DNA of 58,461 nt. Source: a virus. Position numbers and translations under genes: made by a program. A model generated the notes under the pieces. The model searched no databases and was not told where the DNA came from. It worked only from the letters and a program-made list of their open reading frames with translations. This document shows, piece after piece, positions 8,162 through 58,461 of the stretch (position 1 is its first letter; each line of letters opens with the position of its first letter). The stretch lies in the IMG/VR virus record IMGVR_UViG_3300044678_001332, positions 1 to 58,461 of that record; one strand, 5' to 3'.

Positions 8162-8496
8162 TTATTAAGGTATTGGAACCATTGTATAAGGTTGTTACTA
8201 TTGAGGATGAAGATGGTAACAAGGTTCCTACTGAAGTACCTGGAAAGATTATTTCTAAAAGAATGGAGATTAATGAGATAACAGAGTTTGCTGAAGTTAT
8301 TAATGAGAGGACTAAGAAGCCTTATAAGAAGAGGTGTTTGTTAAGGTCTATGGATCAGTGGATTGTAGTTAATCATTCATTTGAAGAGTTAAGTAAGATG
8401 AAGGATACACCTTCAAGGATAGTTATAAAAGGATTTTATGGTAAGACTACAGGACGAAGTTATCAGGAAGCTAACAGAAATAGCAAAAAGAAATAG
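8158..8496 (+). CDS. Hypothetical 112-aa phage protein
   Basis: Beta-rich first half (MIIKVLEPLYKVVTIEDEDG, GKIISKRMEINEITEFAEVIN). The second half contains RCLLRSMDQWIVVNHSFEELSKM, the style of small phage proteins that read a K/R-rich site followed by an HxxEE helix. The C-terminus is basic (EANRNSKKK). No function can be assigned. Its last 59 nt overlap the HU/IHF-like gene. Confidence 0.55.
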   Translation: MIIKVLEPLYKVVTIEDEDGNKVPTEVPGKIISKRMEINEITEFAEVINERTKKPYKKRCLLRSMDQWIVVNHSFEELSKMKDTPSRIVIKGFYGKTTGRSYQEANRNSKKK

Positions 8497-8710
8497 TGTT
8501 TCTTATACAGAGGTTAAAGGTATATACTCTGGATTATTTGAATTCCTAGTTTCAGAATTTTCACAAATAGATGATAGTGATCCTAATACATGGAATAAGA
8601 ATGTTATTATCAAAAATTTTGGTAAATTTGTAATAAATAAAAGTAAATTAAAAAAATATGACAACATTAAAAGAAAAATTAATGAACAATCCAATGAACT
8701 CACCAAGTAA
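8438..8710 (+). CDS. HU/IHF-like DNA-binding protein
   Basis: A 90-residue protein of the HU/IHF size. It has a two-helix N-terminus (QDEVIRKLTEIAKRNSVSYTEV, IYSGLFEFLVSEF) and the strand signature NVIIKNFGKFVI, which mirrors the conserved gFGkF strand of HU. A basic end follows (NKSKLKKYDNIKRKIN). The DNA-intercalating arm is much shortened. crAss-like phages commonly carry an IHF-type gene, and a role in genome condensation or packaging is likely. The ATG at 8438 is kept because the first helix would be lost otherwise, despite the 59-nt overlap. Confidence 0.6.
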   Translation: MVRLQDEVIRKLTEIAKRNSVSYTEVKGIYSGLFEFLVSEFSQIDDSDPNTWNKNVIIKNFGKFVINKSKLKKYDNIKRKINEQSNELTK

Positions 8711-9053
8711 GTTTATTGGTAGATTGTTTGAAGCAAGAGATGTTGCACACATTGAACATCTTAGAGTAAAAGGTCCTGGTGCCTATGCAGCACATACAGC
8801 TTTAAATGGATTTTATGATTCCCTGCTTGATTTAGTTGATGGCTTTGTAGAAAGCTACCAAGGTAAGTATGGTATTGTAAACTTTGAAGTTAAGTCTGTT
8901 AAGCCTTTGGATTTTATGGAATACATTGAAGAGTTTGCTAAGTATGTAGAAGCATCAAGAGAAGTGTTTAAGGAGGATTACCTTAAGAATCAGATTGATG
9001 AGCTTTCTAGCCTTACTTATTCTACTATCTATAAGTTGAAGTTTCTTAAGTAA
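8658..9053 (+). CDS. Ferritin/Dps-like helical phage protein (DUF5856-like)
   Basis: A 131-residue all-helical protein with FIGRLFEARDVAHIEHLRVKG, then YAAHTALNGFYDSLLDLVDGFVESYQGKYG. The spacing of His, Asp and Glu resembles the first helix pair of Dps/ferritin-like proteins and the phage DUF5856 family as I remember it. Dps-type proteins bind DNA or iron, but neither activity is shown here. Start choice is uncertain: 8658 overlaps the previous gene by 53 nt, and Met13 (8694) would reduce this to 17 nt. It ends in a TAATG junction with the next gene. Confidence 0.55.
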   Translation: MTTLKEKLMNNPMNSPSKFIGRLFEARDVAHIEHLRVKGPGAYAAHTALNGFYDSLLDLVDGFVESYQGKYGIVNFEVKSVKPLDFMEYIEEFAKYVEASREVFKEDYLKNQIDELSSLTYSTIYKLKFLK

Positions 9054-9574
9054 TGAAGGTATTTGACTTAAAAGATAATGAGGTAGTTATCTCACCTGAG
9101 ATACTCACAATAGAAATATTTGCTGAGATCTGGAAAGAAGATAAGTCTAAAACAAAAATTAATGCATATACAGATTTTAAGTTTATCTATCATCTATGTG
9201 ATTTTAACTCTCCTTATAACAATTACTCAGAAGAAAAAAGAACAGAAGCCATCAAGGAAGAGGTACTGGGAAAAAAGGATTATGAACCATCAGATAAGGT
9301 CAAACAAGCTTGTGAAATATACAAAAAATTAAAGCAGGGTCCATTAGATGTTCTGCTTAATAGTGTTAAGAACAAGATATTTGAATTTTCTAAGTATTTA
9401 AATGAGAATGAGGTAGATGCTGAAAGTACAACTGCAAGTTTGAAGATTATTGATTCTATAAGTAAGGTTGTATCACAGTATAAGAGTTTAGAATCTGCAG
9501 TTAAAGCTGAGAAACAAGATACTGCTGTTAAGATTAGAGGTGATAAACAAGTTAATAGTGAATTTAACGAGTAA
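9053..9574 (+). CDS. Candidate small terminase subunit
   Basis: A 173-residue helical protein directly upstream of terL, joined to it by a 1-nt stop/start overlap. It starts MKVFDLKDNEVVISPEILT. The stretch FAEIWKEDKSKTKINAYTDFKFIYHLCDF resembles a family often found just before terL in Bacteroidota phages. The C-terminal half is a long helix with charged faces (KNKIFEFSKYLNENEVDAES, KIIDSISKVVSQYKSLESAVK) suited to oligomerisation. DNA-recognising small terminases are typically found at this position. The assignment rests on position and helical character, not on a recognised DNA-binding motif. Confidence 0.5.
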   Translation: MKVFDLKDNEVVISPEILTIEIFAEIWKEDKSKTKINAYTDFKFIYHLCDFNSPYNNYSEEKRTEAIKEEVLGKKDYEPSDKVKQACEIYKKLKQGPLDVLLNSVKNKIFEFSKYLNENEVDAESTTASLKIIDSISKVVSQYKSLESAVKAEKQDTAVKIRGDKQVNSEFNE

Positions 9575-20107: not shown

Positions 20108-20725
20108 ATGGCATTTTCACCAACAATATCTGCCTGTCTCAATGGATGCACAGGTATAACTTTTAAAGATACTACTGGTTTTTACAATGCTACTACTAAT
20201 GAAGGAGGTTGGAATAACAATTTAACTCTTTGGAAATTACAAGCAGATGGTTCACCACATGTTGTAACAGCAACACTATCATTAACACTTAATGGAGGAC
20301 TTCCTACAACATTTAATGTTTTAACTGCTATCCAAGGTTCTATATTTCCAACCTATACATTGTATGAGTATATACCAGTAGATACTTATGGTAACCCTGC
20401 TCTTCAAGATGGCTATTATAATGCTACATTAACTATTGTAGATGATGAAGATAATACCTATGTTACAGATGTAGACTTTGTAGTATATTGCAATGTAGCT
20501 TGTTGTATATCTAAAATGGCTGCTAACTTACCTGCTGATTCATGTGAAAAATGTGATTCAACTCAATTTGATGATTTTATGACTGCTTATGGTATTTATC
20601 AAGCATTAAAAGCTACTGCTGAATGTCAAGGTACTCAAGAATTTTATAAACTATTAACAAAACTTCAAAAACTTTGCAATTCATCATCATCTACAAGTGG
20701 TGGGTGTGGTTGTGGTTGCTCTTAA
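20108..20725 (+). CDS. Cys-rich virion-type protein
   Basis: A 205-residue protein starting [20 protein letters not shown]. An ATG at 20066 is in frame but lies inside the terminator, so 20108 is chosen. The first 130 residues look like a beta sandwich ([40 protein letters not shown]). The C-terminal part has CNVACC, CEKC and a helical pair, and ends in [14 protein letters not shown], an unusual Cys-Gly tail. Proteins of this kind precede fibre genes in crAss-like phages; it may be a fibre adaptor with metal-bound or disulphide-linked cysteines. That role is inference. Confidence 0.55.
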
Positions 20726-20730
20726 TAACT

Positions 20731-22119
20731 ATGGAAAAATTTATAAAAACTGAAGGAAGAGATCCTTTTATAAAATTTGAAAGTGACTCAGCAATAGCAA
20801 TGTTTGGTCATTTAAATGCTCTTGTAGATGCTATTAATTCAAGTAGTGGTGGAGGAGATGGAGGACTAAGTAGTATTGAAGTACAGAAATCAGGTGACCC
20901 TACAATATATAATGCAACTAAATTAGTTTTTGCATCTAATGCTCAAGTAATTGGTAGTGGTAATACAGCAACTATTTTTGTACCATTTGTTTCTGGTCCA
21001 CAAGGTCCAGTGGGTCCTCAAGGTCCACAAGGATTACAAGGCCCAGCAGGTGCTCAAGGACCTTCAGGACAAAATGGAGCAACAGGTTCTCAAGGACCAA
21101 CAGGTGCTACAGGTCCACAAGGTTTAACAGGACCTTCAGGTCCAATTGGTCCAGCTGGTCCTGCAGGTGTAAATGGTAATAAATATAAAACTAGTTCTAC
21201 TACATCAACTACATTACCTTTTATAGGTTTAAGAAATTTTACTGTATCTGATGCAGATTTAGCTTATACTGCAGGACAATTTGTAGTTATTGCAGATGGT
21301 ACAGGTAGACAAATGGTAGGTACTGTTCAAAGCTATACTACAAGTCCTAATATTTTACAAGTAGATGTAACTGCATCTACAGGTACAAATACATCATCTA
21401 GTTGGCAAATAAATCTTCAAGGTATTCAAGGTCCTACTGGACCTCAAGGATTAACTGGTCCTCAGGGCCCTGCTGGTGCCACAGGTGCTACTGGGCCTGC
21501 TGGTCCAACAGGAGCAACTGGTTCAACTGGAGCTACTGGAGCTACGGGTCCTGCAGGCCCACAAGGACCTCAAGGTACTCAAGGTATTAATGGTACTAAT
21601 GGAGCTAAATGGTGGGCAGCTAGTGCAAATCCTAATTCAACACCAATAGTAGGTTCAGTAATTGGAGATTTTGCATTACAATCTGATGGACAAACTTGGA
21701 CAAAAACTGCTAACCCTAGTACTTGGATAGCTACTGCAGATATATTAGGACCTCAAGGTCCTGCAGGTCCTGCGGGAGCTGCTGGTACTGCTAATACTGT
21801 ATTATCTTTAAGTTTTGATGGTTATGGTGCACCTATTGGAGTTCCTGTTACATATACACTTTTAATTCCATATACAGGAACTTTTGTTCGTGCTCAAATA
21901 TTTTCTGATGTAAGTACAACATCTGTTATTACAGTAGTAGGTGGTGGATTAAATCTTAGTATTCCTATAACAGCTGCTGTTTCTTCACCTCTTATTACTC
22001 TTACTGGTTCTACTTCAGTAACAGGAACACCAACTTCACCAGCACAAGTTACTATAACAGTTGTTAATAATACTAATTCAACAAAACTATCTTTATCATT
22101 AACAGGAACAAGATCTTAA
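20731..22119 (+). CDS. Collagen-like fibre protein 1
   Basis: A 462-residue protein starting [20 protein letters not shown]; 20731 is preferred over an in-frame ATG inside the previous gene. The short N-terminal domain (about 80 residues) probably attaches to the virion. Two collagen-like Gly-X-Y segments follow (about residues 88-148 and 230-287), separated by a folded beta insert. A third short segment ([15 protein letters not shown]) precedes a C-terminal beta domain rich in Thr/Val. Gly-X-Y repeats make trimeric rods, so this is likely a head or tail fibre. The DNA repeats follow from the protein repeats. Confidence 0.75.
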
Positions 22120-44015: not shown

Positions 44016-47000
44016 ATGGCTGAAAAAAATTCACTCTGGAAAAACATTAGAAAAAAAGCAGCACAAAACAAAAGAACTGGTGCTACACCTAAAAAACCTA
44101 CTAAAGAAATGCTTAGGCAAGAAAGGAAAATTAAAGCTAAAAAATATTATGCGGGTGGACCTATAGGTGAAGGTGATGATAAAAATAAAGCATTAAAAGG
44201 TACTAATGATACATTAATAGCACCTACGTTAAATACACAAATTGTGGAAGAAGAAGCTCCACAATGGATGAAAGATAAAGAAACTATTAGACCTGATGAA
44301 ATTAATTTTTGGGAAAGTTTTAATCCTAAAAAATGGGGATTAAATGATTATTCAAATTATAGTTCTTTTAATTCTGCTTTTAGAAATGCTAGAGAAGCTG
44401 GTGAAGATGAGTTTGTATGGAATAAAGAAAGATATAATACTAATTTAATACCTAAAGATATTAGTGATCAGTATTGGGATTCTAAAAAATTTATACAAGA
44501 TTATTATACTAATGAACCTTTTATTCCATTAGATACAAACTATTTTGATCTACATGATTTTAATGATAAACTATCAAAAGATAAATATGGATATACTTGG
44601 CAAGAATACTATGATAAAGTATCAAAAACTCCAGTATATTCTAAAGACAGTGGAAGATCAGATGAAGAAGGAAAGATTCTGGATAGTTATTTTGATACTT
44701 TAGGTTTATTAAGCAGATCTGGTTACTATAGTAGTCTTTCAGATAAAGAAAAATCTGATTATTATACTTACCAAAAAAGTAAGTATGTAGACGCTTTAAA
44801 TGATCCAAATTATTATTTTTCAATTACATCTCAACCAAATCCTAAAAACCGAGTTTTAGGATATCAACATAGTGGTGATAAAAAACTATATGCAAGTAAT
44901 ACTGGTAATAGAGAAGATTTTACAACATTTATTCATGAGCTTTCACATAAAGGGGATTCAAAAAGTAGATCAAGCTATAATAATGAAAGTAACAGAATCC
45001 CTACAGTAGATACAGATGCACTTAATAAGTTTGGTAATAAACTTTCTCAAAAAAGATTTAATTATGTTAGTGATCCTACTGAAACAGAAGCTAGAAAAAT
45101 GTCTACTCTTTATTTTATGAACAAGGTTCTTAAAAAAGATATTAGTTCTGGAAAAATAAAAAATAAAGATCTTACTGAATTGTATAATCTTTATAACTCA
45201 GAAGGAGGATATTGGTCCTCTAAATCTATACCTGGTGATGTAAGAGATTTATTAGAATTATATAAATATCAATGGAATGATTTATTAAAATATTTAAATA
45301 ATGATTTTTCATATTATAAGCCTGTCCAAAAAGCTAAAGGTGGACCTACAGGTAATGACGAAGATCCATTTAAATCAAAATTAAATCAAGGTCAAACTGT
45401 AGGTAAAACATCTCAAGATTGGTTAGCTAACTGGGTACGAAGTCCTAAATTTGCCGAGAGATTAAATCAAAACTTTCCAGCTCCTGCAAGTGATCTTGAA
45501 AAAAAAATATATGGTAATAAAGAAGCTAGAGAAAGAGCATCAGCTGCTAATTTAAAAACTATTAATAAAAGAATACCTGATGTAATAAGTGACATATATG
45601 ATACTAATTTTTTATATAATACAAATCCAGAAAGTAATACTGGACTTTTAAATACATATAGAAGTAGATTAGGAGATCCTAAATCTATTAGAGACTTTGA
45701 TAAAAACATGTCTACTAATCCTCAAGGATTTACTGATCAAGATGGTAGAATTATTATTACAAATGAAGCTAATACTCAATATGGTCCTCAATCAGTTGGA
45801 GTACATGAATTAACTCATAAAGTATCAGAAGGTGATAAAACATTAGATAAATTATTTAGAGGTAAATTTCAAACACCTAGTCCTGATAAAATTGATGCTA
45901 ATTATAAGAAAGATGAAATGTATCCTTTCTTAATGCAAATGAGATTTGATAATAAATTTCAACCAGGAGAAGAAATTACTCCAGAAAGATTAAAACAAAT
46001 TAGAGAGTCAGGACCTAATAATCATTTATTTAGATATTATAATGATGATGAAATATCTAAATACTTAAATACACTTGCAAGTAATCAGACACAAGCACCT
46101 ATGCAATATGCAGCTAAAGGTGGATATATGTATGCAGAAGGTGGTGATGGTGAAGATGAACCTGTAACATTATATAAAAAAGCTTATTATAATCCTGATC
46201 AAGATAGAATAATTCCATATGCTGGTAGTCAAGATAATGAATACTATGTAACACCTGATACTCCTCAAGGTATTGATTTTGAAAGAAGACTTCCTGAACT
46301 TGAAATAACAGATGATTATAATTCAACAGAAGATTATTATGGTAATAAAAGGTATATTCCTTCTGAAACAGGATTTATTCCAAATCCAAATTATAAACCA
46401 TTAGCATCAGGTAGAGCTGAACCAACACTAGGTCCAGTTGAAGCTGCTTTATTTGCACCTGTTGCAGGAGCTGTTGCAGGAACTATGGCATCTAAAGCTG
46501 TTCCTGCTGTTGTATCAGCTTTAGAATTACCTGCAGTAGTAGGTGGTAGAACTATACCTTTGTTAACTGGAAATAATATTTTAGGTGTAACAGGAGGAAT
46601 AACTGGTGCTAATATGCTAGGATCAGATATAAATAGTGGTTACTATACATCAAATGCATCTATTGAAGATAAAATTGCAAGAGGTTTAGAAACAGGACTT
46701 CTTATAGGAACTTCTCCAGGTATGTTACCAGCAATGGGTTCGGCATATAAAAATGTTAAAAACTCTTTAGGTAAAAATAAAGAATTATTATCTAATTCTG
46801 CGTCTAATCAATTACCTCCACCACCACCAGAAACATTTAATATAATAGATGGTTATGTTCCTGGTAGTTATGTACCTGATTATGCATCTCAATTTACTCC
46901 ATTAGAAACTTTTAATAATTCAAAATTTTCTCTTAAAGATATTAATAATAAAATTAAATCTTTAAAAAATATTACATATAAAGGTAAATCCATATTTAAA

Positions 47001-50000
47001 AATAAAAAAATTGGACACTATGATGAACCATTAAAAAATGATTCTTCATATGAAACTTGGAAAAAAACAGTTTTAGGAGAAAATGCTGATAGTGTAATAT
47101 CATTACAAGAATTTAAAGATGCTCATAAACAAAGTATAGAATATTTTAAAAGTATTGGCGCACCTCTTACTACAGGAAAAGAACATGGTTTGTTTATAAA
47201 AAACATACTTGCTGATAGAATACCAAATTTTACTTCTCTTCAATTTGATGATAAAGGTAGAAGACTTATATTTGATCCAGATATGTATGGTTCAGATATA
47301 CAACCAGCTGAATTGAGACAAATGGAAAAGTTTATTACAGGTGAGGGATATGATATTACTAAAATGACTCCTAAAGAAAGAATGTTAATGGAAGCTTATG
47401 CTCATGGATATGATACTTCATTAAATGAAGTATTAAGAGGTAGTAGTCAAGGTCCAGTTTCTAAATATTATTTAGAACAAGGTCAAATATTAAATGAAGG
47501 TATTTTAAAAAATAAATTTCAAAATCCATCTTTTGTAAGAAGAGGTGTACAATCAGATTATACTGTAGAACTTTTAGACCCAATAACATATAAACCAACA
47601 GGAGTAACTAAATTAAGATCTGAATTAACTAAAGGTGATACTTTTATAGATAAATCATTTTTATCAACTTCTGCAACACCTAGTTATTGGGGTCCTACAG
47701 AACTTTCAGAATTAATAGAAATACCTGGAGGATCATTACAATCTTTTGCAGTACCTGAAGCTGCTACTGCAACACGCTTTAGAGGTGAAAATGAAGCTAT
47801 ATTACCTACTGGTTTAATTAGACAAGTAATTGATAACAATCTTCACAATCATCCAGAATTTTTTGATTGGAGAGCAAAATTTAGAACAAAAATATTAAAT
47901 CCTTACGAAGATGGTGGTACTATTAATCCATACATGTATTATGCAGGTGGACCAATGCAATATAAAAGAGGTGGATTACTTAAAGATATAGGTTTAGGTG
48001 TTGCTGATTTTGCATTAAGTACTATTGGTGGTGTTACTGGTATTAAATCAATGAAAGATATTGTTAATGAAAAACAATATTCTAATGATAGATTTGATGC
48101 AGGTGCAAACTTTGCAGGTAGTCTTGGAAGTACTGCTTTAAAATTAATACCTGTTACAGCACCTATTGCAAATGCTGCAGGTGTGGTTGGTGGTGCAGCT
48201 AACAAAGCTTTTGGTATTGATGCAGCAAATTATAATCCTAATCAAGAAGTAAGTGACTTAGAAAAAGCAGGTAATATTGTTGGACAAGCTGGTAATGTTG
48301 CTAGTATGTTTATGGGTAGTACGTCAGGTGTATCAGAAGATGCTGGTAAATTTATGCAAGGTGTAGATAAAATAAATCAATTTGGACAATCACCTGCAGG
48401 TCAACTTTTAAACCAAGGACTATCTTTTGAACAAGGTGGTGATATAAATAAATTTAATAACTTTACAAACTCTATGAGAGACAGATACAACAGTTATAGA
48501 AACAAGTACTCTAGAGGAGGAAAGGTTCAAGATAATGCTGAAGAAAAACTTGAATATTTTGGTATGACTAAAGTACCTAATCATTCAGGGTTTCATTATG
48601 AAAATCCTAATGGAGGTTCATATGGAGGAACAAATGCTTCATTTGAAAAAAATGAAATTGTTTTACATGCTAAAGGTGGTCCTACTCCAGGACCTGGAGA
48701 ATTTGTTTTTCCTTCTGAAGTAAATGGTCAAAAAAACAGACCAGCATTTCTTGAATTAGATAAAAATGGTATGCCAATTCCTTTAAACATGACTATAGCT
48801 CAATTTGTAGAAAGAGAAGTTAATAAAGGAAGTGAATTTAGAAAAGAAAATTCTTTAGGAAGAGAAAGAGTAGATATGGCTAATCAAAAAGCAATGGACA
48901 TGGTAGCTTATTATGATCAACTTGATCAACAGCAAGCACAACAAAAAGAAATGATGGTTAATGGTGCTTTACAATATGCAGCTGCAGGTGGTAAGATAAA
49001 TAAAGATATTGAAAAGATTTTAAATGATGATATTCAAAGTTATATTAAAGCAGATAATTATTATGCTTATGGTGGATATCTTCCTAAAAATAAAAAATTT
49101 AACATGCCTTACTCTAATGGTGGTAAACTACCTAAAGAAGTTTTAAGAGCAAGAGTTCAAGCTCACATGTCAATTAAAGAAGCTAATTCTTATGTAGATC
49201 AATATGCTAATGGAGGATCAATGGATCCACCAACTGCTAAAAGAAGTTATGTAAAGCAAGGTTCTAATAGTATGCTAGGTAATAATTTAAATAATACTGA
49301 GTTTGGTTCTAGAATTATAAATGAATATGGTAATGGATTACCTAATGATACTTCTTATATTTATCAATCTCCTACTGAAGATTATTTCTACAATACAGGG
49401 CAGAATACTCAAAATGGTAAACCAGTATCTAATTATAACTCAGGTTCTGTAGCACCTTTTAGTGCTAATGTATATCAAGATAGAATTAAAAGATTAGCAG
49501 GTTATGCAAATGGTGGTCCTGTAGTATCTAATGTAAATCAAGACTTTGGTTTATATGCACAGAACAGAGGTGGTATGATGATGGCTAATGGTGGTATGAT
49601 GCCACAGAATGATAGTATGTCTAAACAAATAGCTGCTGCTTTGCAACAAGGTGCAGATCCTCAACAATTACTTCAACAATTACTTCAACAGTTAGTTAAG
49701 TCAGGAATGGATCCTCAACAAGCTCAAGCAATGTTAGAAAATATTATGGGTAGTATGCAAGCATCACAAACTCAAGCTCCTATGATGGCTATGGGTGGTG
49801 AAATGTATGCTCCTGGTGGATTCTTTGATAATTTACGTTCTGATTTTAACCATGGTAGAAGAATGGCATTTAACAAACCTTATAGAAATGCTTATAACTT
49901 AGCTAAAGGTTATAATACTATTAATCCTAAAAATTACCCAAATGTTTTTACAGAAGGTAATGGACAAGTAGGAGGTGAAGATTATGCTGGTTTATATCCT

Positions 50001-50726
50001 ATGACACAAGATGAAGCTACACAATACCAAGGTTATGACCCTACAAAAGTTACACCTTCTTCTACTACTAAAAGTGGATTACCAGTAGGTAATGAAGATA
50101 TATTTGGTAATGATAAATTAGGAAAAGGTTTAGCAATAGGTCAAGCTGCAATTCCATTAATAGAAGCAGGTTATCATTTGTTTAATAAACCTAAACATAT
50201 TAAAGCACCTGTTGTACAAGATGCAACTGTTAATTATGAACAATCTAGAATAAGAGATCAAAGACAAACAAATTTGACTAGAAGTTCTTATTTAAATATG
50301 TTAAGAAATTCAGGTATGTCAGCAAATCAATTTGCTGGTAATGCTAAAGATTATCTTTTAAATTCTGCTGCAGAACAAGCAGGTAGAGATGCAACAAGTA
50401 TTCAAAATGAACAAAATCAAAATGCTGTTGCTAGAGCACAAGCTGAAAATTTAAATGCTCAAAATAGATTTGCAACTGATCAATTAAATTATGAGATAGA
50501 TCAAAACAGACTTGGTAATATATTTGGTGCATTTAATAATGCAGCTACTATGGGAATGCAAGGTTACAATGATATAAAACAAAATGAATATGATAGAATG
50601 AGAGCATTGAGTACACAATCAGAAAATGTAGTACCTGTAAATGTTAATGGTAGAATATATCAAGCAACAAAAGGACCTGATGGTTATTACTTTAATGGTA
50701 AAAAAATAGCAGAATTTGGAGTTTAA
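44016..50726 (+). CDS. Giant virion cargo polyprotein with ADP-ribosyltransferase and HExxH domains
   Basis: A 2236-residue protein after the tail gene, where crAss-like phages keep proteins that travel in the virion and enter the cell. Seen in order: HELSH (307-311) and HELTH (597-601), zinc-protease-like HExxH motifs; an Ala/Gly hydrophobic stretch near 808-870; an ADP-ribosyltransferase (about 1090-1300) with Arg1175/Arg1176 (FVRRGV), STS at 1217-1219 and Glu1258-x-Glu1260 (RGENEAILP); a second hydrophobic stretch near 1320-1400; Gln-rich and coiled-coil parts. The R, STS, E-x-E set is the signature of Arg-directed enzymes such as phage T4 Alt. Short AKGG/YAGGP-type motifs punctuate domain borders. 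Proteolysis and host-modifying roles are inference. Confidence 0.8.
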   Translation: MAEKNSLWKNIRKKAAQNKRTGATPKKPTKEMLRQERKIKAKKYYAGGPIGEGDDKNKALKGTNDTLIAPTLNTQIVEEEAPQWMKDKETIRPDEINFWESFNPKKWGLNDYSNYSSFNSAFRNAREAGEDEFVWNKERYNTNLIPKDISDQYWDSKKFIQDYYTNEPFIPLDTNYFDLHDFNDKLSKDKYGYTWQEYYDKVSKTPVYSKDSGRSDEEGKILDSYFDTLGLLSRSGYYSSLSDKEKSDYYTYQKSKYVDALNDPNYYFSITSQPNPKNRVLGYQHSGDKKLYASNTGNREDFTTFIHELSHKGDSKSRSSYNNESNRIPTVDTDALNKFGNKLSQKRFNYVSDPTETEARKMSTLYFMNKVLKKDISSGKIKNKDLTELYNLYNSEGGYWSSKSIPGDVRDLLELYKYQWNDLLKYLNNDFSYYKPVQKAKGGPTGNDEDPFKSKLNQGQTVGKTSQDWLANWVRSPKFAERLNQNFPAPASDLEKKIYGNKEARERASAANLKTINKRIPDVISDIYDTNFLYNTNPESNTGLLNTYRSRLGDPKSIRDFDKNMSTNPQGFTDQDGRIIITNEANTQYGPQSVGVHELTHKVSEGDKTLDKLFRGKFQTPSPDKIDANYKKDEMYPFLMQMRFDNKFQPGEEITPERLKQIRESGPNNHLFRYYNDDEISKYLNTLASNQTQAPMQYAAKGGYMYAEGGDGEDEPVTLYKKAYYNPDQDRIIPYAGSQDNEYYVTPDTPQGIDFERRLPELEITDDYNSTEDYYGNKRYIPSETGFIPNPNYKPLASGRAEPTLGPVEAALFAPVAGAVAGTMASKAVPAVVSALELPAVVGGRTIPLLTGNNILGVTGGITGANMLGSDINSGYYTSNASIEDKIARGLETGLLIGTSPGMLPAMGSAYKNVKNSLGKNKELLSNSASNQLPPPPPETFNIIDGYVPGSYVPDYASQFTPLETFNNSKFSLKDINNKIKSLKNITYKGKSIFKNKKIGHYDEPLKNDSSYETWKKTVLGENADSVISLQEFKDAHKQSIEYFKSIGAPLTTGKEHGLFIKNILADRIPNFTSLQFDDKGRRLIFDPDMYGSDIQPAELRQMEKFITGEGYDITKMTPKERMLMEAYAHGYDTSLNEVLRGSSQGPVSKYYLEQGQILNEGILKNKFQNPSFVRRGVQSDYTVELLDPITYKPTGVTKLRSELTKGDTFIDKSFLSTSATPSYWGPTELSELIEIPGGSLQSFAVPEAATATRFRGENEAILPTGLIRQVIDNNLHNHPEFFDWRAKFRTKILNPYEDGGTINPYMYYAGGPMQYKRGGLLKDIGLGVADFALSTIGGVTGIKSMKDIVNEKQYSNDRFDAGANFAGSLGSTALKLIPVTAPIANAAGVVGGAANKAFGIDAANYNPNQEVSDLEKAGNIVGQAGNVASMFMGSTSGVSEDAGKFMQGVDKINQFGQSPAGQLLNQGLSFEQGGDINKFNNFTNSMRDRYNSYRNKYSRGGKVQDNAEEKLEYFGMTKVPNHSGFHYENPNGGSYGGTNASFEKNEIVLHAKGGPTPGPGEFVFPSEVNGQKNRPAFLELDKNGMPIPLNMTIAQFVEREVNKGSEFRKENSLGRERVDMANQKAMDMVAYYDQLDQQQAQQKEMMVNGALQYAAAGGKINKDIEKILNDDIQSYIKADNYYAYGGYLPKNKKFNMPYSNGGKLPKEVLRARVQAHMSIKEANSYVDQYANGGSMDPPTAKRSYVKQGSNSMLGNNLNNTEFGSRIINEYGNGLPNDTSYIYQSPTEDYFYNTGQNTQNGKPVSNYNSGSVAPFSANVYQDRIKRLAGYANGGPVVSNVNQDFGLYAQNRGGMMMANGGMMPQNDSMSKQIAAALQQGADPQQLLQQLLQQLVKSGMDPQQAQAMLENIMGSMQASQTQAPMMAMGGEMYAPGGFFDNLRSDFNHGRRMAFNKPYRNAYNLAKGYNTINPKNYPNVFTEGNGQVGGEDYAGLYPMTQDEATQYQGYDPTKVTPSSTTKSGLPVGNEDIFGNDKLGKGLAIGQAAIPLIEAGYHLFNKPKHIKAPVVQDATVNYEQSRIRDQRQTNLTRSSYLNMLRNSGMSANQFAGNAKDYLLNSAAEQAGRDATSIQNEQNQNAVARAQAENLNAQNRFATDQLNYEIDQNRLGNIFGAFNNAATMGMQGYNDIKQNEYDRMRALSTQSENVVPVNVNGRIYQATKGPDGYYFNGKKIAEFGV

Positions 50727-50738
50727 AAAATATAAGAT

Positions 50739-52979
50739 ATGAATTTATACAAGTTTCAACCTAGACAATATGTAGATGTATTACCTGATTTACCATTAGA
50801 ATGGTTACAAGGTCAGGTTGATAAAAAACAGAATGTTATTAATGCTCAAAGAGATGAGCTTAATAAAGCTGCTGAAAACTATTTAAAATTAAACTATGGA
50901 ACTTTTGGTAGAGATCTTTATGATCAAATAAATAAAGACTACCAAGGAAAGTTTAAACAAATGTCAGAAGACTTGTTAACTAGACAAGACATTCCTGGAG
51001 TAGCATCATCATTTTCTAATTTAGTTAGAGAAGCAGCATTTGATCCTAGAATCAAAGATCTTAATAAAGAATTTGCAGCTTATCAGAAATATTTAGAAAC
51101 TAAAATGAATCCTGAATTTCATGGTGCTATAGATTTAACTCAATATGGAAAACAAATAGGTGAAGACTTTAATGTTGATCAAGCTATTGCACAGTATCCT
51201 TTAGTTAAATATGAAGATAGTATTCAACCTTATGTTGCAACAGCTGAGAAATTTAAACCTTATAAAGATGTTAATACTGATAAGTGGGTATTTAGTAATC
51301 CAATATCAGGTGAAACATTTGTTCGTAATACTAAAGAAGAAATTGAACAAGTTTCTAAACCAAGATTACAAGAATATTTTGAAAGTCAGTATTATAATTG
51401 GAACATGGATGCTAGATCTAAGTATGATAAGTTAAAAGGTACTAATGTAGATTTAAATCAATTTGATCCTAACTTTAATTTCAAAGATGAAAATTTAGGT
51501 AGAGATATTTGGAGAAAAAAGTATTTACCATATTTACAAATGGCTTATACTCAAAGAGATGAAGAAACTGAAGTTACACCAATGGGTGGAGGAAAACCAA
51601 CATCTTCAAATAATCCTAATAAACCACCAGCTGATGTTAAATTAGAGTATAACATGATGACTTCAATGTATGGTATTGGTGTTTTAGGTAATAGATTATC
51701 TACAGGTGAAGAAATAAGAACTTATGATGATGCAATAGGTAATATTCAAGATCATAAAAATAGAATAAGTACATTAGTTCGTCAAATGTTTGAAGCATCT
51801 AAAAAAGGTGATCATGCTACAGTACTTACTTTAGATAAAGAAAGACAAAATCTAATGTCAGATTTAACTACTTGGGAGTCTTGGCAAAAACTTATTGAAG
51901 AAGATTTGTATAATAAAAATTTAGGACAAGATTTAAGTAATGCTTTAAAACTTGAAAAAGATTGGATTGAAAGTCATTCAGGTCAAATTGCAGATTTTGG
52001 TGCATTAAGTTTAATTTATAAAAAACCAGTTGAACAAATAAAGAATGATATTTTTTATAAAAGAGATACTACATATGAAGGAGTTGATTATGATGAAATA
52101 GATGCTTTCTTAGAAGAAGCTAGTAAAATAAGAAGAGCTAATTTAAAAGGTGATGCATCTAAGCTTTATGAAAGGTGGGAAAAATATTTAAACTATCAAA
52201 CACAAGGTACATCATATCAACCTAATAATGATGCTTCTAGACAAAGATTAGATCAAATGGTTTTATCTTTAATTACTTCTGGTAAAAAACCTTATAACTT
52301 ACAGACTGATAAAGAAGTTTCTGATTTTAAAGCTTTACAAGAATATTTATTAAAATTGCAAGCTGAAAATGGTTCATTTAATACTAAAGGTTTAAGTACA
52401 GAAATTCTTTTAGATGAAGAAGATGGTCCTGTATTAATATTACATGGATTAAATATAGATGGTAGTAAAGGAGAAGATATTCCTAATTCTATAGAATTTG
52501 ATATTAGAGATACACCTAGTTTATTAAATGTTCTTTATGAAATAGATCCTAGTAGACAAACTCGCAATGCTTACTTTGTTGAAGCTGCAAGATCATTAAA
52601 AGAAAATAAAAACAAGAAGGGATCATTTACTTTAAATTCTTATGGTAATGTTCAAGAAGAAGTTAATTTCTCAAGAGTACCTATAGGTGATGGTAAATAC
52701 ATGTTTAAAGATTCAGACAATGTAATGTATGCTAGTTTAAATGATTTAATTCAAACTAAAACACTAATTGCTGCTGAAGAGGATAAAAATATTGAAGTAG
52801 CTAGACAAAAATTAAGTCAAGATTTTAATATGGCTGTTCAATCAGGAGATGTTGAATTAATTAAACAAGCTATGGCTAAAGCTCAAAATTTTGAAATTCT
52901 TTTAGAGAAAGAACTAAAACAGAAGCGAGAGGGAAAGGGCAAGCCTCAGGTGAAAGGTCCGTTCAACCTGGGGCAGTAA
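50739..52979 (+). CDS. Virion cargo protein, zero-frame product of a frameshift pair
   Basis: A 746-residue protein starting MNLYKFQPRQYVDVLPDLPL. It is mainly helical and polar (KKQNVINAQRDELNKAAENY, KGDHATVLTLDKERQNLMSD), without membrane helices or enzyme motifs. The beginning (PRQYVDVLPDLPLEWL) is a pattern I associate with crAss-like cargo proteins. The last 20 codons are GC-rich and unusual (ending VKGPFNLGQ), because they contain a -1 frameshift signal. Ribosomes that slip at codons 732-733 would continue into the following frame and make about 1385 residues. Confidence 0.75.
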   Translation: MNLYKFQPRQYVDVLPDLPLEWLQGQVDKKQNVINAQRDELNKAAENYLKLNYGTFGRDLYDQINKDYQGKFKQMSEDLLTRQDIPGVASSFSNLVREAAFDPRIKDLNKEFAAYQKYLETKMNPEFHGAIDLTQYGKQIGEDFNVDQAIAQYPLVKYEDSIQPYVATAEKFKPYKDVNTDKWVFSNPISGETFVRNTKEEIEQVSKPRLQEYFESQYYNWNMDARSKYDKLKGTNVDLNQFDPNFNFKDENLGRDIWRKKYLPYLQMAYTQRDEETEVTPMGGGKPTSSNNPNKPPADVKLEYNMMTSMYGIGVLGNRLSTGEEIRTYDDAIGNIQDHKNRISTLVRQMFEASKKGDHATVLTLDKERQNLMSDLTTWESWQKLIEEDLYNKNLGQDLSNALKLEKDWIESHSGQIADFGALSLIYKKPVEQIKNDIFYKRDTTYEGVDYDEIDAFLEEASKIRRANLKGDASKLYERWEKYLNYQTQGTSYQPNNDASRQRLDQMVLSLITSGKKPYNLQTDKEVSDFKALQEYLLKLQAENGSFNTKGLSTEILLDEEDGPVLILHGLNIDGSKGEDIPNSIEFDIRDTPSLLNVLYEIDPSRQTRNAYFVEAARSLKENKNKKGSFTLNSYGNVQEEVNFSRVPIGDGKYMFKDSDNVMYASLNDLIQTKTLIAAEEDKNIEVARQKLSQDFNMAVQSGDVELIKQAMAKAQNFEILLEKELKQKREGKGKPQVKGPFNLGQ
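52931..52974 (+). promoter_or_regulatory. Programmed -1 ribosomal frameshift signal (GGGAAAG + hairpin)
   Basis: GGGAAAG at 52931-52937 sits in the correct register (G GGA AAG). After a 5-nt spacer, a 9-bp hairpin follows: 52943-52951 pairs with 52966-52974, with one G-U pair and a 14-nt loop. The overlapping A AAG GGC (52934-52940) is a second possible slip site. The 59 nt from 52922 hold 34 G/C, far above the surrounding DNA. GGGAAAG is the lambda G/T tail-gene slippery heptamer. Confidence 0.8.
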
Positions 52980-54895
52980 GTAGCTTTAACAAAGCATTAG
53001 GATCAGTAGAACAAGACCCTAAAGAAGGTTATAGATCAACTAACCCTAACTCATCAGCAGTTGGTAAGTATCAACATATATGGGGAATACATGGAGAACC
53101 ACAAAAGGGTCAAACAATTTCTGAAATTGAAAGAGTAACAGGAGTTAAATCAAAAGAAGATTATTTAAATAACCCAGAAGCTCAAGAAAAATATCAGGCT
53201 CATTTAGAAAGTCATTATAAAAGAAATGTACCTGGATTAAGAAAAAGATTTCCTGGAGTAACTAAAGGAATTGATGATGAAGTATTAATGGCTCTTCAAC
53301 ATCTTTCAGGTTTAGGAGATGCTAGAATATATTTAGATACTTTAGAAAAAACTAAATCTTATGATGCTGCTCAACAAGCTTTAAATCAATCTATAGAAAA
53401 AAGAACAGGTGAGGCTCCTCCAACTAATAAAACAGTTTTTGAATATTTAAATAATTTTTCTGAAAATTTAGAAAAGGATAATACTCCTAAAACACCTCAA
53501 ATATTTGCTCCTAAAAAACAACCTCAATTAAATCCTAATCCTACATTTACTGCATCACCATTTGCTACACCTAAAGTTACTCAAACTAAACCTCAACCTC
53601 AAGAACCTGTTGATAGTAGATTTAGAGTATTACCAGAAGTTCTTCCTAAAATAGAACAACCTAAAACTGTTACTGAAACTAAAGATCCTAATTTTGTTGA
53701 AAAGGTTTGGACATACCTGTTTGAAAGTGATGTTCCTATTAAAGAAACTAGTAAAATAAAAGAAGCAGCTGATGGTAATCCTGTAGAAGATGAGGAGTTT
53801 GTTGCAAGTAATGATTCTAATGTAGCATTAACACCTAAAGCTACACCTAAATTATCTAATGTTAGAAGAGTAACTGAAGATCCAAAAATTAAACAAAGAA
53901 AAATAGAAGATGAAAATTTTACAAAAAATATTGGATATTCAAAAGTTAATGATAAAGTTTATAGAGGTAAGTCTCATAAAAACTTAGATTTAGGTAGTTA
54001 TTCTAAAATGATTGTTGATATGTCAGATGGTATAACAGTAACTTATCAACCTAGAAATGCTAGAAAAAATGATAGAACAGAAGTTAATAATGCAATAGCT
54101 ATTACTGATTATTTATATGACTTTGACTTTACAAATAATTGGTATGATAAACAAGCTGATTATCAAATTACAAAATTAAAAGAAAGCTTATTTAAACCTA
54201 AAGACTGGGAAAAAAGAACTTATATTAACGCAGAAGGTAAAAGAGTAAAATATGGTCCATGGTCTAAAAATTGGGATAATGCTTTAGATGGTAGAAAATT
54301 TGTAACTGTACGAGAACCTTTAGGTAATAATAAATATAAAATATCTATTAAACCTATTGATAATCTCACTGAAAAAGATTTTGAAGAGTCTACAATATAT
54401 AGACAAGGGTACGCTAAATTATCTGATCTTGATATAACACCTGATCAGAAAAAAATTAAATTATTTGCTAAAAAAGATGCTTTTGTTGGTCAAGGACTTC
54501 CTTTTAGAGATGAAAATAATAAAGAACATGGACTAAGAGTAAGTGGAGGTAAGGGTAATGTGAGTGTAAATTTAAAAGGTGAAAATGTAAAAGGATATTT
54601 AAATATATCTAGCCTTAATCAATTTGGTGCTTATTTAGGAGGTACTGTTACTATTATATCTGAAGATGGTAAAATAGCTAAAAAAGTTAGTGGTAGTTTA
54701 AAAGACATTTTAGAAACTGCTTTCTATATTAAAAAACAAACTGGTAGTAAAGAAGTTTACTTTTTACAAAGCGATGCAGGTAGTATGAATATAAAAGCTG
54801 ATGCTAATAATGGTAAAATTACACCTGCTCAATTAGCAATTTCTAGAAACCAAGAACCTCAAGCAGGTGCTGCAGAGATACTTTTAAATGAATAA
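52937..54895 (+). CDS. Frameshift extension: lysozyme-like domain plus long C-terminal part
   Basis: An open -1 frame (stop-free from 52895) with no ATG until 53288, which would cut a domain in half. Translation from the slip site gives about 652 residues. First comes a transglycosylase/lysozyme-like domain: SVEQDPKEGYRSTNPNSSAV followed by GKYQHIWG, which fits the catalytic Glu and the NP-SSAxGxYQ loop of this fold, and ALQHLSGLGDARIYL. Then a Pro/Lys/Gln-rich linker and a C-terminal domain (SKMIVDMSDGITVTYQPRNA, KKVSGSLKDILETAFYIKKQ, VYFLQSDAGSMNIKA). As a fusion, cargo would carry a wall-opening enzyme. Lysozyme activity is inferred. Confidence 0.72.
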   Translation, partial: GQASGERSVQPGAVSSFNKALGSVEQDPKEGYRSTNPNSSAVGKYQHIWGIHGEPQKGQTISEIERVTGVKSKEDYLNNPEAQEKYQAHLESHYKRNVPGLRKRFPGVTKGIDDEVLMALQHLSGLGDARIYLDTLEKTKSYDAAQQALNQSIEKRTGEAPPTNKTVFEYLNNFSENLEKDNTPKTPQIFAPKKQPQLNPNPTFTASPFATPKVTQTKPQPQEPVDSRFRVLPEVLPKIEQPKTVTETKDPNFVEKVWTYLFESDVPIKETSKIKEAADGNPVEDEEFVASNDSNVALTPKATPKLSNVRRVTEDPKIKQRKIEDENFTKNIGYSKVNDKVYRGKSHKNLDLGSYSKMIVDMSDGITVTYQPRNARKNDRTEVNNAIAITDYLYDFDFTNNWYDKQADYQITKLKESLFKPKDWEKRTYINAEGKRVKYGPWSKNWDNALDGRKFVTVREPLGNNKYKISIKPIDNLTEKDFEESTIYRQGYAKLSDLDITPDQKKIKLFAKKDAFVGQGLPFRDENNKEHGLRVSGGKGNVSVNLKGENVKGYLNISSLNQFGAYLGGTVTIISEDGKIAKKVSGSLKDILETAFYIKKQTGSKEVYFLQSDAGSMNIKADANNGKITPAQLAISRNQEPQAGAAEILLNE

Positions 54896-54908: not shown

Positions 54909-54931
54909 CATAATAATCATTATTGTATAAT

Positions 54932-57900
54932 ATGGATGAATTAGACAAATTGTTAGCAGAGGGTAAGATTACAGCCTCTGAATATGCTAGACTTGTAAGA
55001 CAACAAACAGAAAGCCAAAGTGCAGATTATAGAAAGAGTGAAGTTTTAGAAGCTGCTGCAGGTATTCAACAATTTTATAAATCACATTTAGGTATAGATC
55101 CTAGTGACATTGCTTCTGGTCAACCAGAATATCAAATGTCAATGTCACCTGAAGAACTTGAAACTTATACTTCAAGAGGTATTACTCCAAGTACTTACAG
55201 AGATTATGAAGATGATAGAGCTGAAGCTCAGTCATTTGCTGACAAACTTGGAAATGGTTTAACTAAACTTATTGGTAAATCTGCTACTGCAGTAGCTGGT
55301 GGTATTGGTATGGTACCATCAATAGCAGCTAATGTTGCAGGACAGTTAGAGGATATAGTTAATGGTGACAATACTTCATTCCATGAAATATATGATAATT
55401 TTTATTACAGAGCATTAGATGAAGCTAATGCAGCAATGGATGAAGCATTACCTCATTATGTTACAAGAGAAGAAGAAAATGCTTCTCTATTAAATTCATT
55501 AGGTACTGCTAACTTTTGGACTAATGACTTTTTACAAGGTGCTTCATTTGTTATAGGTGCAATAGCAACTGAAGGTTTAATGACTCTTGGTGCAGAAGCA
55601 TCAGGTCTTAGAAACTTAACTAGAACATTAGATGCTGTAAAAAAAGGAACTAAGGTTGATGATATTGCTGGGTTAATGGGTAGGTCAGCAACTGCTCAAA
55701 CAGGTTATGAAGCTGTTACATTAGGTAGACAGATAATAACAGGTGCTGGTTATGAGTCTTCAGTAGAAGCATTATCTTTTGTTAAAGATGCTGAAAGACA
55801 ATGGTTAGATGATTATAGATCACAACACTTAGAAGAACCTACTGAAGAAGAATATGCTAAAGCAATGGAAGAAATTTATTCAGTTGCTAATGGTGTATTT
55901 GGAATGAATATGTTAGTTGTTGGTACAACTCAAGCTAAAACCTTACCAGGATTATTTGCACCTAAATTAGCTAACTCAATTAGAAGAGTATTAGGTAAAG
56001 GAGAAATAGCTGAAGCATCTCAAATAATTCAAACATCTAAACTATCTGCTAAACAATTAGATAGAGCTGCTAAAAACTTAGGTAAAACAGTTGATGAAGT
56101 AAAAGCAATACCTAACATAGCTAAAGAAGCTACTTATAGTAAATTAGGTAAGATTACAAGTAGAACTGCTAGAGGTTTAGAAGGTGCTGTATTTGAAGGT
56201 GGACAAGAAGGTTTACAGAAAGCAATTAGTTATAGTGCATTAGATTACTTAAATGATAGAATGGACCCTGCAGCAAATGAAGACTTTATGGATTCATGGA
56301 TGTATGGATTAACTAAAGCTTTTGGTAATAATGCTGAAAGTTGGAAAGAAATATTTATTGGTGCATTGTTAGGTTCTGTAGGTGGACCAGGTGGTAAAGG
56401 TGGATGGCAAGGTGGAATTTATGAAGGTTTTAGAGACAGAACTAAATCTGAGAACTTTCAAAATGTATTAAACCTTGCTAATAATTATTCTAAAAACTCA
56501 GAAGGTATTTTAAATAATTATTTAAAGCATTGGAACCTAACTTTAAATCTTCAAGATAAAAAGGACAGGGCTTATGATAAGAATGACATGTATGACTATC
56601 ATTCTCAAGAAGCTAAAGAAGTTTTTAATTATTTAAACTTCATGAAGAAAATGGGAAGACTATCAGAGGTTGATGAACAACTTAGTGATAGTCTTAACAA
56701 GTTAAATAAGAAACAATTTGAAGAACTGTATGGTTATAAAAACTTAACTAATACTGAATTTACAAAACGTAAAGCAGAATTGTCTCAAAAGATAGCAAGA
56801 GAAATTAGTGATGTTTCTGAGTCTGCAGATAAAGGTGCTTCTATTTACAGAGGTGGAGATCAGGATGTTTTAGATGGTATTGCATATACTATTTATGCTC
56901 ATAAGAATGCTGATAATAGAGAAAGTAAGATAGCAGAAGAAGTTAGTAAGCTTGTAGGAATTATAGATCCTAGAAGTTTAGTTGAAATATCTAGAGATAA
57001 CCAAAGATTAAAATTAAAAGATGGTTGGTTATACACTTATAAAAGTAAACTTAAAGGTTTAAAGGCTGCTAAAAAAGCTTTAGAAAACAGAATGTTATCT
57101 GGAAGTGTTAATAAAAAAGATGTACAAATAGATGAGCTTGAAAAGAAAATTAAACAGAAAGAAAAAGAACTTAAAGCTCTTTTGAAAGAAGAATATAATA
57201 CAAGAAAGGCTTTAAGAAAATCTCCAATAACTCCAGAATATGAATTAGATTATGATGAGTTTGAAGAAAAGGTAAACAAGCAAGCTGAGTTTCTTGAAAA
57301 ACTTGAAAAGCATTATGAAACTGATGGTATAGATAAATCAGAAATAGAACAGAAACTTGCTGACCTTAAGAAATTAGCAAGAGATAGAGAAAAGTATATT
57401 GGTGAATTCAATAGACTTCTTACATCAGAAGGTCTTAAAGAACTTGAAACTAGTATTGAAGGTTTAAGAAAAGAGTTTGCCAAAGAGCAGGTTGATGCTA
57501 CTACTATGGCTATAATGGAAGTTGAAAGATCAAAAAAAGCTTCTCAAAGAGTTTATAAAGCACAAGAACTTGCATTTAAATTAAGAGCTAAAAGACTTTC
57601 AGGAATTGAACAGCCTATTACTGAAGATCTAAATGCTGAAACTATTGATACTCTATCTGATAATGCAAATCAGTATTATACTCAGATGATAGCTATAGCT
57701 AACAGTATAGTTGGTGCTAGTCAAAATAATGATGATAAGATTGCAGCATTAGAAAGTTTAATTAAACAGTTTGCTGAAGAAGTTGCAAATGTTCCAGAAG
57801 AATTAAGAAGAGATTATGAAATCCTACTTGATAGATTTAAAACACAAATAGAAAGTTTAATTAATTCTTTAAAGAAAACACCTGGTAGTAAATCAGGTCA

Positions 57901-58461
57901 AGTGTTATCTAGTATTAATAAACTGTTTAATCTATTTAAACCTAAAGAAGATAGAAACTCTAATAAAGGTAAACTAGAACAATTAATAACTAATGGTACT
58001 ATTCTTTCTACTATTAGAAGTGAAATGTATTTTGAATTAATACCTTATCCTGAAGGAGGATCATTAGTAGAACCTCATGATGAAGATGGTTCTGTTATAA
58101 AATCTGATGTAAGATTTAGAAAAGGTATAAAGATAGGTGATCAATACTATGGTATTAAAGTAGCTTATAAACTACATCCTAGTAAATATGTAAACTTTAC
58201 AAATGAATCTGGTCAAACAGAAACTCTAACTGAAGTTACATTGGGATATATTAATGACCCTAAAAGAATTATGGTTAAAAAACCAGATGGTTCTTATGGT
58301 GAATTAAATATTAATGATCCTAATGAAGTAAAACAATTAAACTCTGCATTTGTAAATCCAGTAACAAATGAATTTACAGAATCAGGAAAAGAGTTTGTTC
58401 AAGAATATATTAAATTACAAGCAGGATTTGAAAAACTATTAAAAGCTTTTGGAGATAAAAA
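54932..58461 (+). CDS. Giant virion protein (partial, runs off right edge)
   Basis: Starts MDELDKLLAEGKITASEYAR and stays open for at least 1176 codons to the edge. It contains Gly/Ala-rich hydrophobic segments (KLIGKSATAVAGGIGMVPSI, FLQGASFVIGAIATEGLMTL, then AWKEIFIGALLGSVGGPGGK-like stretch near residue 480) and long charged coiled coils (roughly residues 700-860). The hydrophobic segments in an otherwise soluble protein are typical of internal virion proteins that insert into the host membrane during ejection. In related phages the virion RNA polymerase lies in this gene neighbourhood. No polymerase motif is visible in the part present. Confidence 0.65.
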   Translation, partial: MDELDKLLAEGKITASEYARLVRQQTESQSADYRKSEVLEAAAGIQQFYKSHLGIDPSDIASGQPEYQMSMSPEELETYTSRGITPSTYRDYEDDRAEAQSFADKLGNGLTKLIGKSATAVAGGIGMVPSIAANVAGQLEDIVNGDNTSFHEIYDNFYYRALDEANAAMDEALPHYVTREEENASLLNSLGTANFWTNDFLQGASFVIGAIATEGLMTLGAEASGLRNLTRTLDAVKKGTKVDDIAGLMGRSATAQTGYEAVTLGRQIITGAGYESSVEALSFVKDAERQWLDDYRSQHLEEPTEEEYAKAMEEIYSVANGVFGMNMLVVGTTQAKTLPGLFAPKLANSIRRVLGKGEIAEASQIIQTSKLSAKQLDRAAKNLGKTVDEVKAIPNIAKEATYSKLGKITSRTARGLEGAVFEGGQEGLQKAISYSALDYLNDRMDPAANEDFMDSWMYGLTKAFGNNAESWKEIFIGALLGSVGGPGGKGGWQGGIYEGFRDRTKSENFQNVLNLANNYSKNSEGILNNYLKHWNLTLNLQDKKDRAYDKNDMYDYHSQEAKEVFNYLNFMKKMGRLSEVDEQLSDSLNKLNKKQFEELYGYKNLTNTEFTKRKAELSQKIAREISDVSESADKGASIYRGGDQDVLDGIAYTIYAHKNADNRESKIAEEVSKLVGIIDPRSLVEISRDNQRLKLKDGWLYTYKSKLKGLKAAKKALENRMLSGSVNKKDVQIDELEKKIKQKEKELKALLKEEYNTRKALRKSPITPEYELDYDEFEEKVNKQAEFLEKLEKHYETDGIDKSEIEQKLADLKKLARDREKYIGEFNRLLTSEGLKELETSIEGLRKEFAKEQVDATTMAIMEVERSKKASQRVYKAQELAFKLRAKRLSGIEQPITEDLNAETIDTLSDNANQYYTQMIAIANSIVGASQNNDDKIAALESLIKQFAEEVANVPEELRRDYEILLDRFKTQIESLINSLKKTPGSKSGQVLSSINKLFNLFKPKEDRNSNKGKLEQLITNGTILSTIRSEMYFELIPYPEGGSLVEPHDEDGSVIKSDVRFRKGIKIGDQYYGIKVAYKLHPSKYVNFTNESGQTETLTEVTLGYINDPKRIMVKKPDGSYGELNINDPNEVKQLNSAFVNPVTNEFTESGKEFVQEYIKLQAGFEKLLKAFGDK

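Follow-up and report, generated by a model that had tools for sequence, protein, structure and literature searches.

Comparison of nine crAss-like phage loci points to a -1 programmed frameshift that adds a probable wall-cutting extension to a probable internal virion protein

Introduction

A 58,461-base virus record (IMG/VR IMGVR_UViG_3300044678_001332, positions 1 to 58,461; "the window" denotes this whole stretch of analysed DNA) contains a 746-aa gene, here called gene A, that ends over a long stop-free -1 frame. Is this frame a separate gene, the product of a faulty assembly, or the continuation of gene A, reached by ribosomes that change frame; and what would such an extension add to the protein? 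The original prediction was a lambda-like -1 programmed ribosomal frameshift (PRF) in a crAss-like cargo gene, and comparison of nine loci now strongly supports the frameshift itself. Our reading, to which we assign a probability of roughly 0.93 on the strength of that comparison, is that, in a crAss-like clade, the gene for an internal virion (cargo/ejection) protein carries a site of -1 PRF close to its 3' end, which would yield a minority fusion with a probable wall-cutting extension.

Gene A lies at a cargo protein position in a crAss-like genome

The window virus is crAss-like, as identified by its muzzle protein (PF25731, E 1e-127) and ring proteins 1 and 2. Its muzzle gene is followed by one of 2236 aa, then by gene A and the -1 ORF, and then by a homologue of crAss001 gp47 (Table 1); crAss001 has gp44 (muzzle), gp45 (cargo 1), gp46 (cargo 2) and gp47 in succession (PMC10172136). 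Because the two orders match, gene A is placed at the cargo protein 2 (gp46, C2) position, a positional equivalence in which homology was not detected. BLASTP of the 2236-aa protein against gp45 was empty, so this gene is assigned to the C1 position by its place alone. The hhalign comparisons of gene A with gp46 and with the cr50_1 equivalent detected no homology, and a Pfam search, which included the cargo protein 2 profile (PF25712), gave no match. No relatives of gene A were found among INPHARED phages by tblastn or in the genome contig database by scan. The AlphaFold2 (AF2) model of gene A is largely helical and of low confidence (pTM 0.41), and its weak Foldseek matches are to uncharacterised crAss-like proteins. 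One of them, a 582-aa cr85_1 protein, equals the C2-position gene of cr85_1 in length, a model-based link to the C2-position protein that is suggestive only. Position therefore supports the term "cargo gene", with the gene that follows the muzzle on one side of gene A and the gp47 homologue on the other; sequence comparison with gp46 lends it no support. By its position, the gene A product is probably an internal (cargo/ejection) virion protein.

Two other virus proteins in the window carry features of their own. Inside the 2236-aa gene (44016-50726) is an ADP-ribosyltransferase-like domain (47013-48005; Pfam PF03496, E 1.5e-6, above the cut-off), together with two HExxH-like motifs, HELSH and HELTH, seen by eye; an ADP-ribosyltransferase domain on a virion protein is reminiscent of T4 Alt, which acts on the bacterial host. 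The protein at 20674-22119 contains collagen triple-helix repeats (Pfam PF01391, E 3e-19).

The end of gene A carries the elements of a slip signal

The features of the locus are collected in Table 1. The sequence bears out that gene A ends over the stop-free -1 frame and that this frame offers no start before 53288. The predicted heptamer in exact slip register and the hairpin 5 nt downstream of it were confirmed at the same coordinates, with zero-frame codons GGA AAG at the heptamer. Slippage at this site would join 733 residues of gene A to 652 of the -1 frame, giving 1385 residues beside the 746-aa form, in agreement with the predicted fusion of about 1385.

Table 1. Coordinates of the features of the frameshift locus in the window
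Feature	Position	Strand	Basis or remark
Gene A, zero-frame ORF, 746 aa; probable internal (cargo) virion protein, short product	50739..52979	+	ORF; relatives; synteny; AF2 model
Stop-free -1 frame	52895..54895	+	part used after slippage 52937-54895 (652 aa + stop)
Slippery heptamer G_GGA_AAG, in slip register	52931..52937	+	sequence; relatives keep register
Spacer, 5 nt	52938..52942	+	5-6 nt across nine loci
Putative stimulatory stem, 5' arm GCCTCAGGT	52943..52951	+	fold -17.4 kcal/mol; co-varying pairs
Putative stimulatory stem, 3' arm ACCTGGGGC	52966..52974	+	as 5' arm; zero-frame stop at most 5 nt on
Zero-frame TAA stop ending the 746-aa form	52977..52979	+	sequence; in all nine loci stop 39-54 nt past heptamer
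Lysozyme-like domain (predicted), start of -1 extension, invariant Glu and GKYQH motif	52976..53476	+	relatives; AF2 pLDDT 80; weak Foldseek
C-terminal module of extension, common to L001, more distantly L017, L018 and L026	53663..54892	+	alignments; no PDB match
gp47 homologue (RNA-polymerase-associated cargo in crAss001)	54923..58459	+	BLASTP to gp47, E 4e-23; window end cuts gene

The window stem comprises 9 bp, including one G-U, and its folding energy of -17.4 kcal/mol corresponds to a z of -2.4 against shuffles. It lies in the GC-rich island that had been predicted, where GC content rises to 57% (52920-52979) from about 25-30% upstream. In-register GGGAAAR heptamers occur three times in the window (ORFs of at least 130 aa, both strands), and only the one at 52931-52937 is near a gene end and accompanied by a stable hairpin. 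Equally stable folding was found at 11 of 6491 window positions, and a 9-bp helix at the same spacing arose in 63 of 4000 shuffles, a figure for the window alone. An Rfam search gave no match.

Eight divergent relatives keep the signal

Eight further crAss-like viruses in IMG/VR (L001, L003, L005, L013, L017, L018, L019 and L026; L004 is a twin of L003) keep this anatomy, with gene A proteins that are only about 20-30% identical to that of the window. L001, the first IMG/VR relative, has an extension 59% identical to the window's by alignment (51% by BLAST), a gene A 23% identical, and, in the same register, GGGAAAG followed 6 nt later by a stem. L003, L005, L013, L017, L018 and L019 were found by profile scans; L026 was first found by an RNA pattern scan alone, and its zero frame then proved to be a gene A relative. 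The heptamer is in register in all nine loci (GGGAAAG in the window and seven of the eight relatives, GGGAAAA in L019). It stands 39-54 nt ahead of the gene stop in each, with a stem 5-6 nt on, the stop just past the stem and a long -1 ORF. No homologue with a single continuous frame was found within the clade. The check that the original prediction had proposed, alignment of homologues, thus came out in its favour: heptamer, hairpin and +0/-1 arrangement are conserved in eight divergent relatives, and the stem shows compensatory changes.

These changes were scored in an alignment of seven hand-aligned stems, in which loops were replaced by N and one bulged base was removed in L001 and in L026. 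All cells (100%) were paired, with compensatory changes at three pairs, and pairing fell to 62-67% when the partner was slid by one column. The covariation score was reached by 0 of 500 shuffles; the related sequences are few, so these figures are not probabilities. By stability, the slip segments fall in roughly the top 1% of their own loci, and a helix test over the nine loci gave a combined p of 6e-9, with loci taken as independent. The stems of L017 and L018 are unrelated ones at the same spot, and those of L001 (7 bp) and L018 (5 bp) are individually unexceptional. Candidate pseudoknots were seen by eye in L001, L017 and L018. A scan of 2.9 million IMG/VR contigs with a tight RNA pattern returned 24 matches; the PRF-like ones were L026, L003/L004, L001 and L013, as well as L005, recognised though its locus is cut, and a single one outside gene A (L158), which is short and spurious.

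The same comparison bears on two other ways of obtaining a split gene. A single-base indel in one assembly would give the picture seen in the window, and the original prediction had named such an error as grounds for abandoning it. Finding the same split, with a slip signal at the junction, in nine loci from separate records excludes this for practical purposes and leaves sequencing or assembly error with next to no probability. Transcriptional slippage at the G/A run would likewise produce a fusion and can happen on runs of A or G; runs of three, as in GGGAAAG, are too short for usual polymerase slippage, and a conserved stem at 5-6 nt combined with a tandem codon register fits ribosomal slippage instead. 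We consider the transcriptional route extremely improbable.

The -1 frame is coding and lacks a common start

If the -1 ORF is continued from gene A rather than started anew, it should read as coding sequence ahead of any start codon. The first ATG, GTG or TTG lies at 53288 in the window, 6244 in L003, 8679 in L018 and 8616 in L019; in these four loci none precedes the conserved -1 sequence, and in the window, L003 and L019 the first start codon is deep within the conserved domain. Over the stretch from the gene A stop to the first start codon, amino acid identity in the -1 frame is 56-64% among the window, L003, L005 and L019, and most substitutions there fall at codon position 3 of the -1 frame. 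In L003 a stop closes the -1 frame immediately ahead of the heptamer, so access must be gained at or past the slip site.

The main competitor to frameshifting is a separate gene with its own start, translated by re-initiation or translational coupling at or after the gene A stop. Possible starts do exist: a GTG in the -1 frame lies within the 3' stem arm beside the gene A stop in L001, L013 and L026, another GTG in the 5' arm in L017, and a TTG 30 codons in for L005. These GTG codons are not conserved and are by-products of the GGGG/GAGTGGAG stem, and the ATT and ATA codons that could also serve are not common to the loci. The four loci with no usual start mean that re-initiation is not the general route, and a separate gene would leave the conserved in-register heptamer and stem unexplained. 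We therefore regard it as very unlikely. Taken together, the comparison of sequences shows a heptamer, its register and spacing, a compensatory stem and a coding -1 frame with no usable start in several loci, all conserved across the clade, and it is on this pattern that the case for ribosomal frameshifting is built.

The extension resembles a peptidoglycan hydrolase

In seven sequences (window, L001, L003, L005, L013, L019 and L026) the extension starts with a domain that has an invariant Glu and a GKYQH-like motif; the window domain is about 50% identical to those of L003, L005 and L019 and 25-32% identical to those of L001, L013 and L026. Searches of Pfam and PHROG gave no family match worth counting for this domain, and Foldseek, BFVD included, gave none at E below 0.001. 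Among the weak Foldseek matches (all with E of at least 0.001) were T4 lysozyme, MltF and receptor constructs, the last of which we take to be T4-lysozyme fusion constructs, and the weak BFVD matches included viral lysozyme and SLT entries. In L017 the extension opens instead with Peptidase_M23, directly past the junction (Pfam E 6e-29; the best NCBIfam match, a partial one, is MepM); M23 was matched by Pfam in L017 only and not in the window. The L018 extension has neither M23 nor the lysozyme-like domain. From the weak fold matches and by analogy with L017, we hold with moderate confidence that the domain opening the window extension is lysozyme-like. The -1 extension looks like a peptidoglycan hydrolase, and such activity is predicted for it.

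Two further occurrences of related domains were observed. Past its lysozyme-like domain, L013 has a second region (8190-9311) with the motif GHGDHIHISF that is LAS-type-peptidase-like and has no Pfam match. Among INPHARED phages the -1 ORF matched only a cyanophage domain, with no frameshift: in Leptolyngbya phage Lbo-JY46 (L170, 4001-4381) the same lysozyme-like domain forms the C-terminus of an ordinary in-frame 495-aa protein.

The frameshift could also be real and its extension serve another end, as a structural, receptor-related or cytoplasmic effector module. In favour of this alternative, the domain that opens the L018 extension was not recognised, no family matched the lysozyme-like one, and the C-terminal modules have no known match (none in the PDB for that of the window). 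Against it speak the M23 peptidase of L017, the Glu invariant in seven sequences, and the weak Foldseek matches to T4 lysozyme, to presumed T4-lysozyme fusions and to MltF; we judge an extension other than a wall-cutting enzyme to be unlikely, if deserving of some weight.

Modules are exchanged downstream of the junction in one clade

L017 and L026, whose gene A proteins show 21% identity, have in common a 303-aa C-terminal module at 76% identity; another extension module is common to L017 and L018, at 49%. Between L017 and L019 the muzzles are 87% and the gene A proteins 42% identical, whereas the extension is M23 in the former and a 186-aa lysozyme-like domain in the latter. By these alignments, modules downstream of the junction are exchanged among phages, which suggests that the frameshift junction can serve as a domain-exchange boundary. 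Upstream, the L001 and L003 records (L142 1153-5835 vs L014 1-4683; L190 vs L185) are 99.9% identical over the muzzle and the beginning of the gene that follows it and diverge abruptly ahead of gene A (28% aa), through recent cargo-module recombination or chimeric assembly.

The muzzle was present in the records of six of the eight relatives. Those PRF viruses that have a muzzle gene group in a single clade, separate from Steigviridae and Suoliviridae (support 100/100; the reference branches are long), and the frameshift feature thereby marks one crAss-like clade distinct from these two families. Ten named Crassvirales leave no room for an extension: their gene at the C2 position either overlaps the next one downstream or ends at most about 20 nt before it.

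Discussion

From these comparisons we infer the frameshifting, its rate, incorporation into the virion, the enzymatic activity and the role at infection as follows. A ribosome on GGA AAG (52932-52937) would meet the stem 5 nt ahead. Most ribosomes would keep frame and stop at 52979, yielding 746 aa, and a minority would slip to GGG AAA and read on to 54895, yielding the 1385-aa fusion. Both forms would enter the virion by way of their common N-terminal part, and the extension would be present on only some copies. The extension, a probable peptidoglycan-cutting domain with further modules, would then be delivered with the ejected proteins and open the host cell wall. We lean towards this fuller picture with distinctly less assurance than towards the frameshift: a -1 frameshift comparable to that of Gag-Pol may load a minority of ejection-protein copies with a wall hydrolase, with the junction as the boundary for swapped enzyme cassettes. 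It would offer a testable answer to how crAss-like phages could carry and dose a wall-cutting activity.

Literature on frameshifting in Crassvirales and crAss-like phages, covered mostly through open-access papers and including the PRFect paper, contained no such PRF. If true, it would join a small number of programmed frameshifts in internal virion proteins and, judged by the literature searched, be the first described for Crassvirales. Annotation is affected as well: gene callers split the gene A/-1 ORF protein, and since the -1 ORF has no start of its own, the hydrolase domain would be truncated or missed.

Comparison with known systems

Gene A and crAss001 gp46 both lie between the gene after the muzzle and gp47 or its homologue. 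They differ in that no sequence homology was detected between them and that gp46, like its positional counterparts, lacks a -1 extension.

The likeness to lambda gpG/gpGT consists of the G_GGA_AAG heptamer, a minority product with a C-terminal extension, and a tailed phage as the setting. "Lambda-like" is thus apt for the signal and not for the gene, which is not a tail assembly chaperone gene: the gene A product has 746 aa, there is no tape measure, and the gene is placed between the gene after the muzzle and gp47. In lambda, the frameshift products serve in assembly and are missing from the mature virion (PMC5009743). Gene A, at the C2 position, probably encodes an internal virion protein; its slip site is followed by a conserved stem, and its extension looks like an enzyme.

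In phiEco32 and SU10, GGGAAAG and a stem-loop at the end of the major head protein gene add a C-terminal Ig-like domain (PMC4281155). Here too GGGAAAG and a stem-loop end a (probable) virion protein gene and would add a C-terminal domain; the difference is that phiEco32/SU10 are C3 podoviruses in which the capsid surface is decorated, with another protein, another extension and another phage lineage.

In retroviral Gag-Pro-Pol, enzymes are packaged because frameshifting joins them to a minority of the copies of a protein bound for the virion (PMC5009743). The likeness is one of packaging principle only: that system belongs to animal RNA viruses and has no homology to the present one, which would involve a phage ejection protein.

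Finally, T7 gp16, an ejected internal protein, bears a transglycosylase domain of a kind that is swapped between ejection proteins (PMC8954989); it is a precedent for the wall-cutting domain predicted here. Every T7 gp16 copy carries its domain in frame and at the N-terminus, whereas in the crAss-like clade the domain would be C-terminal and reached by a frameshift.
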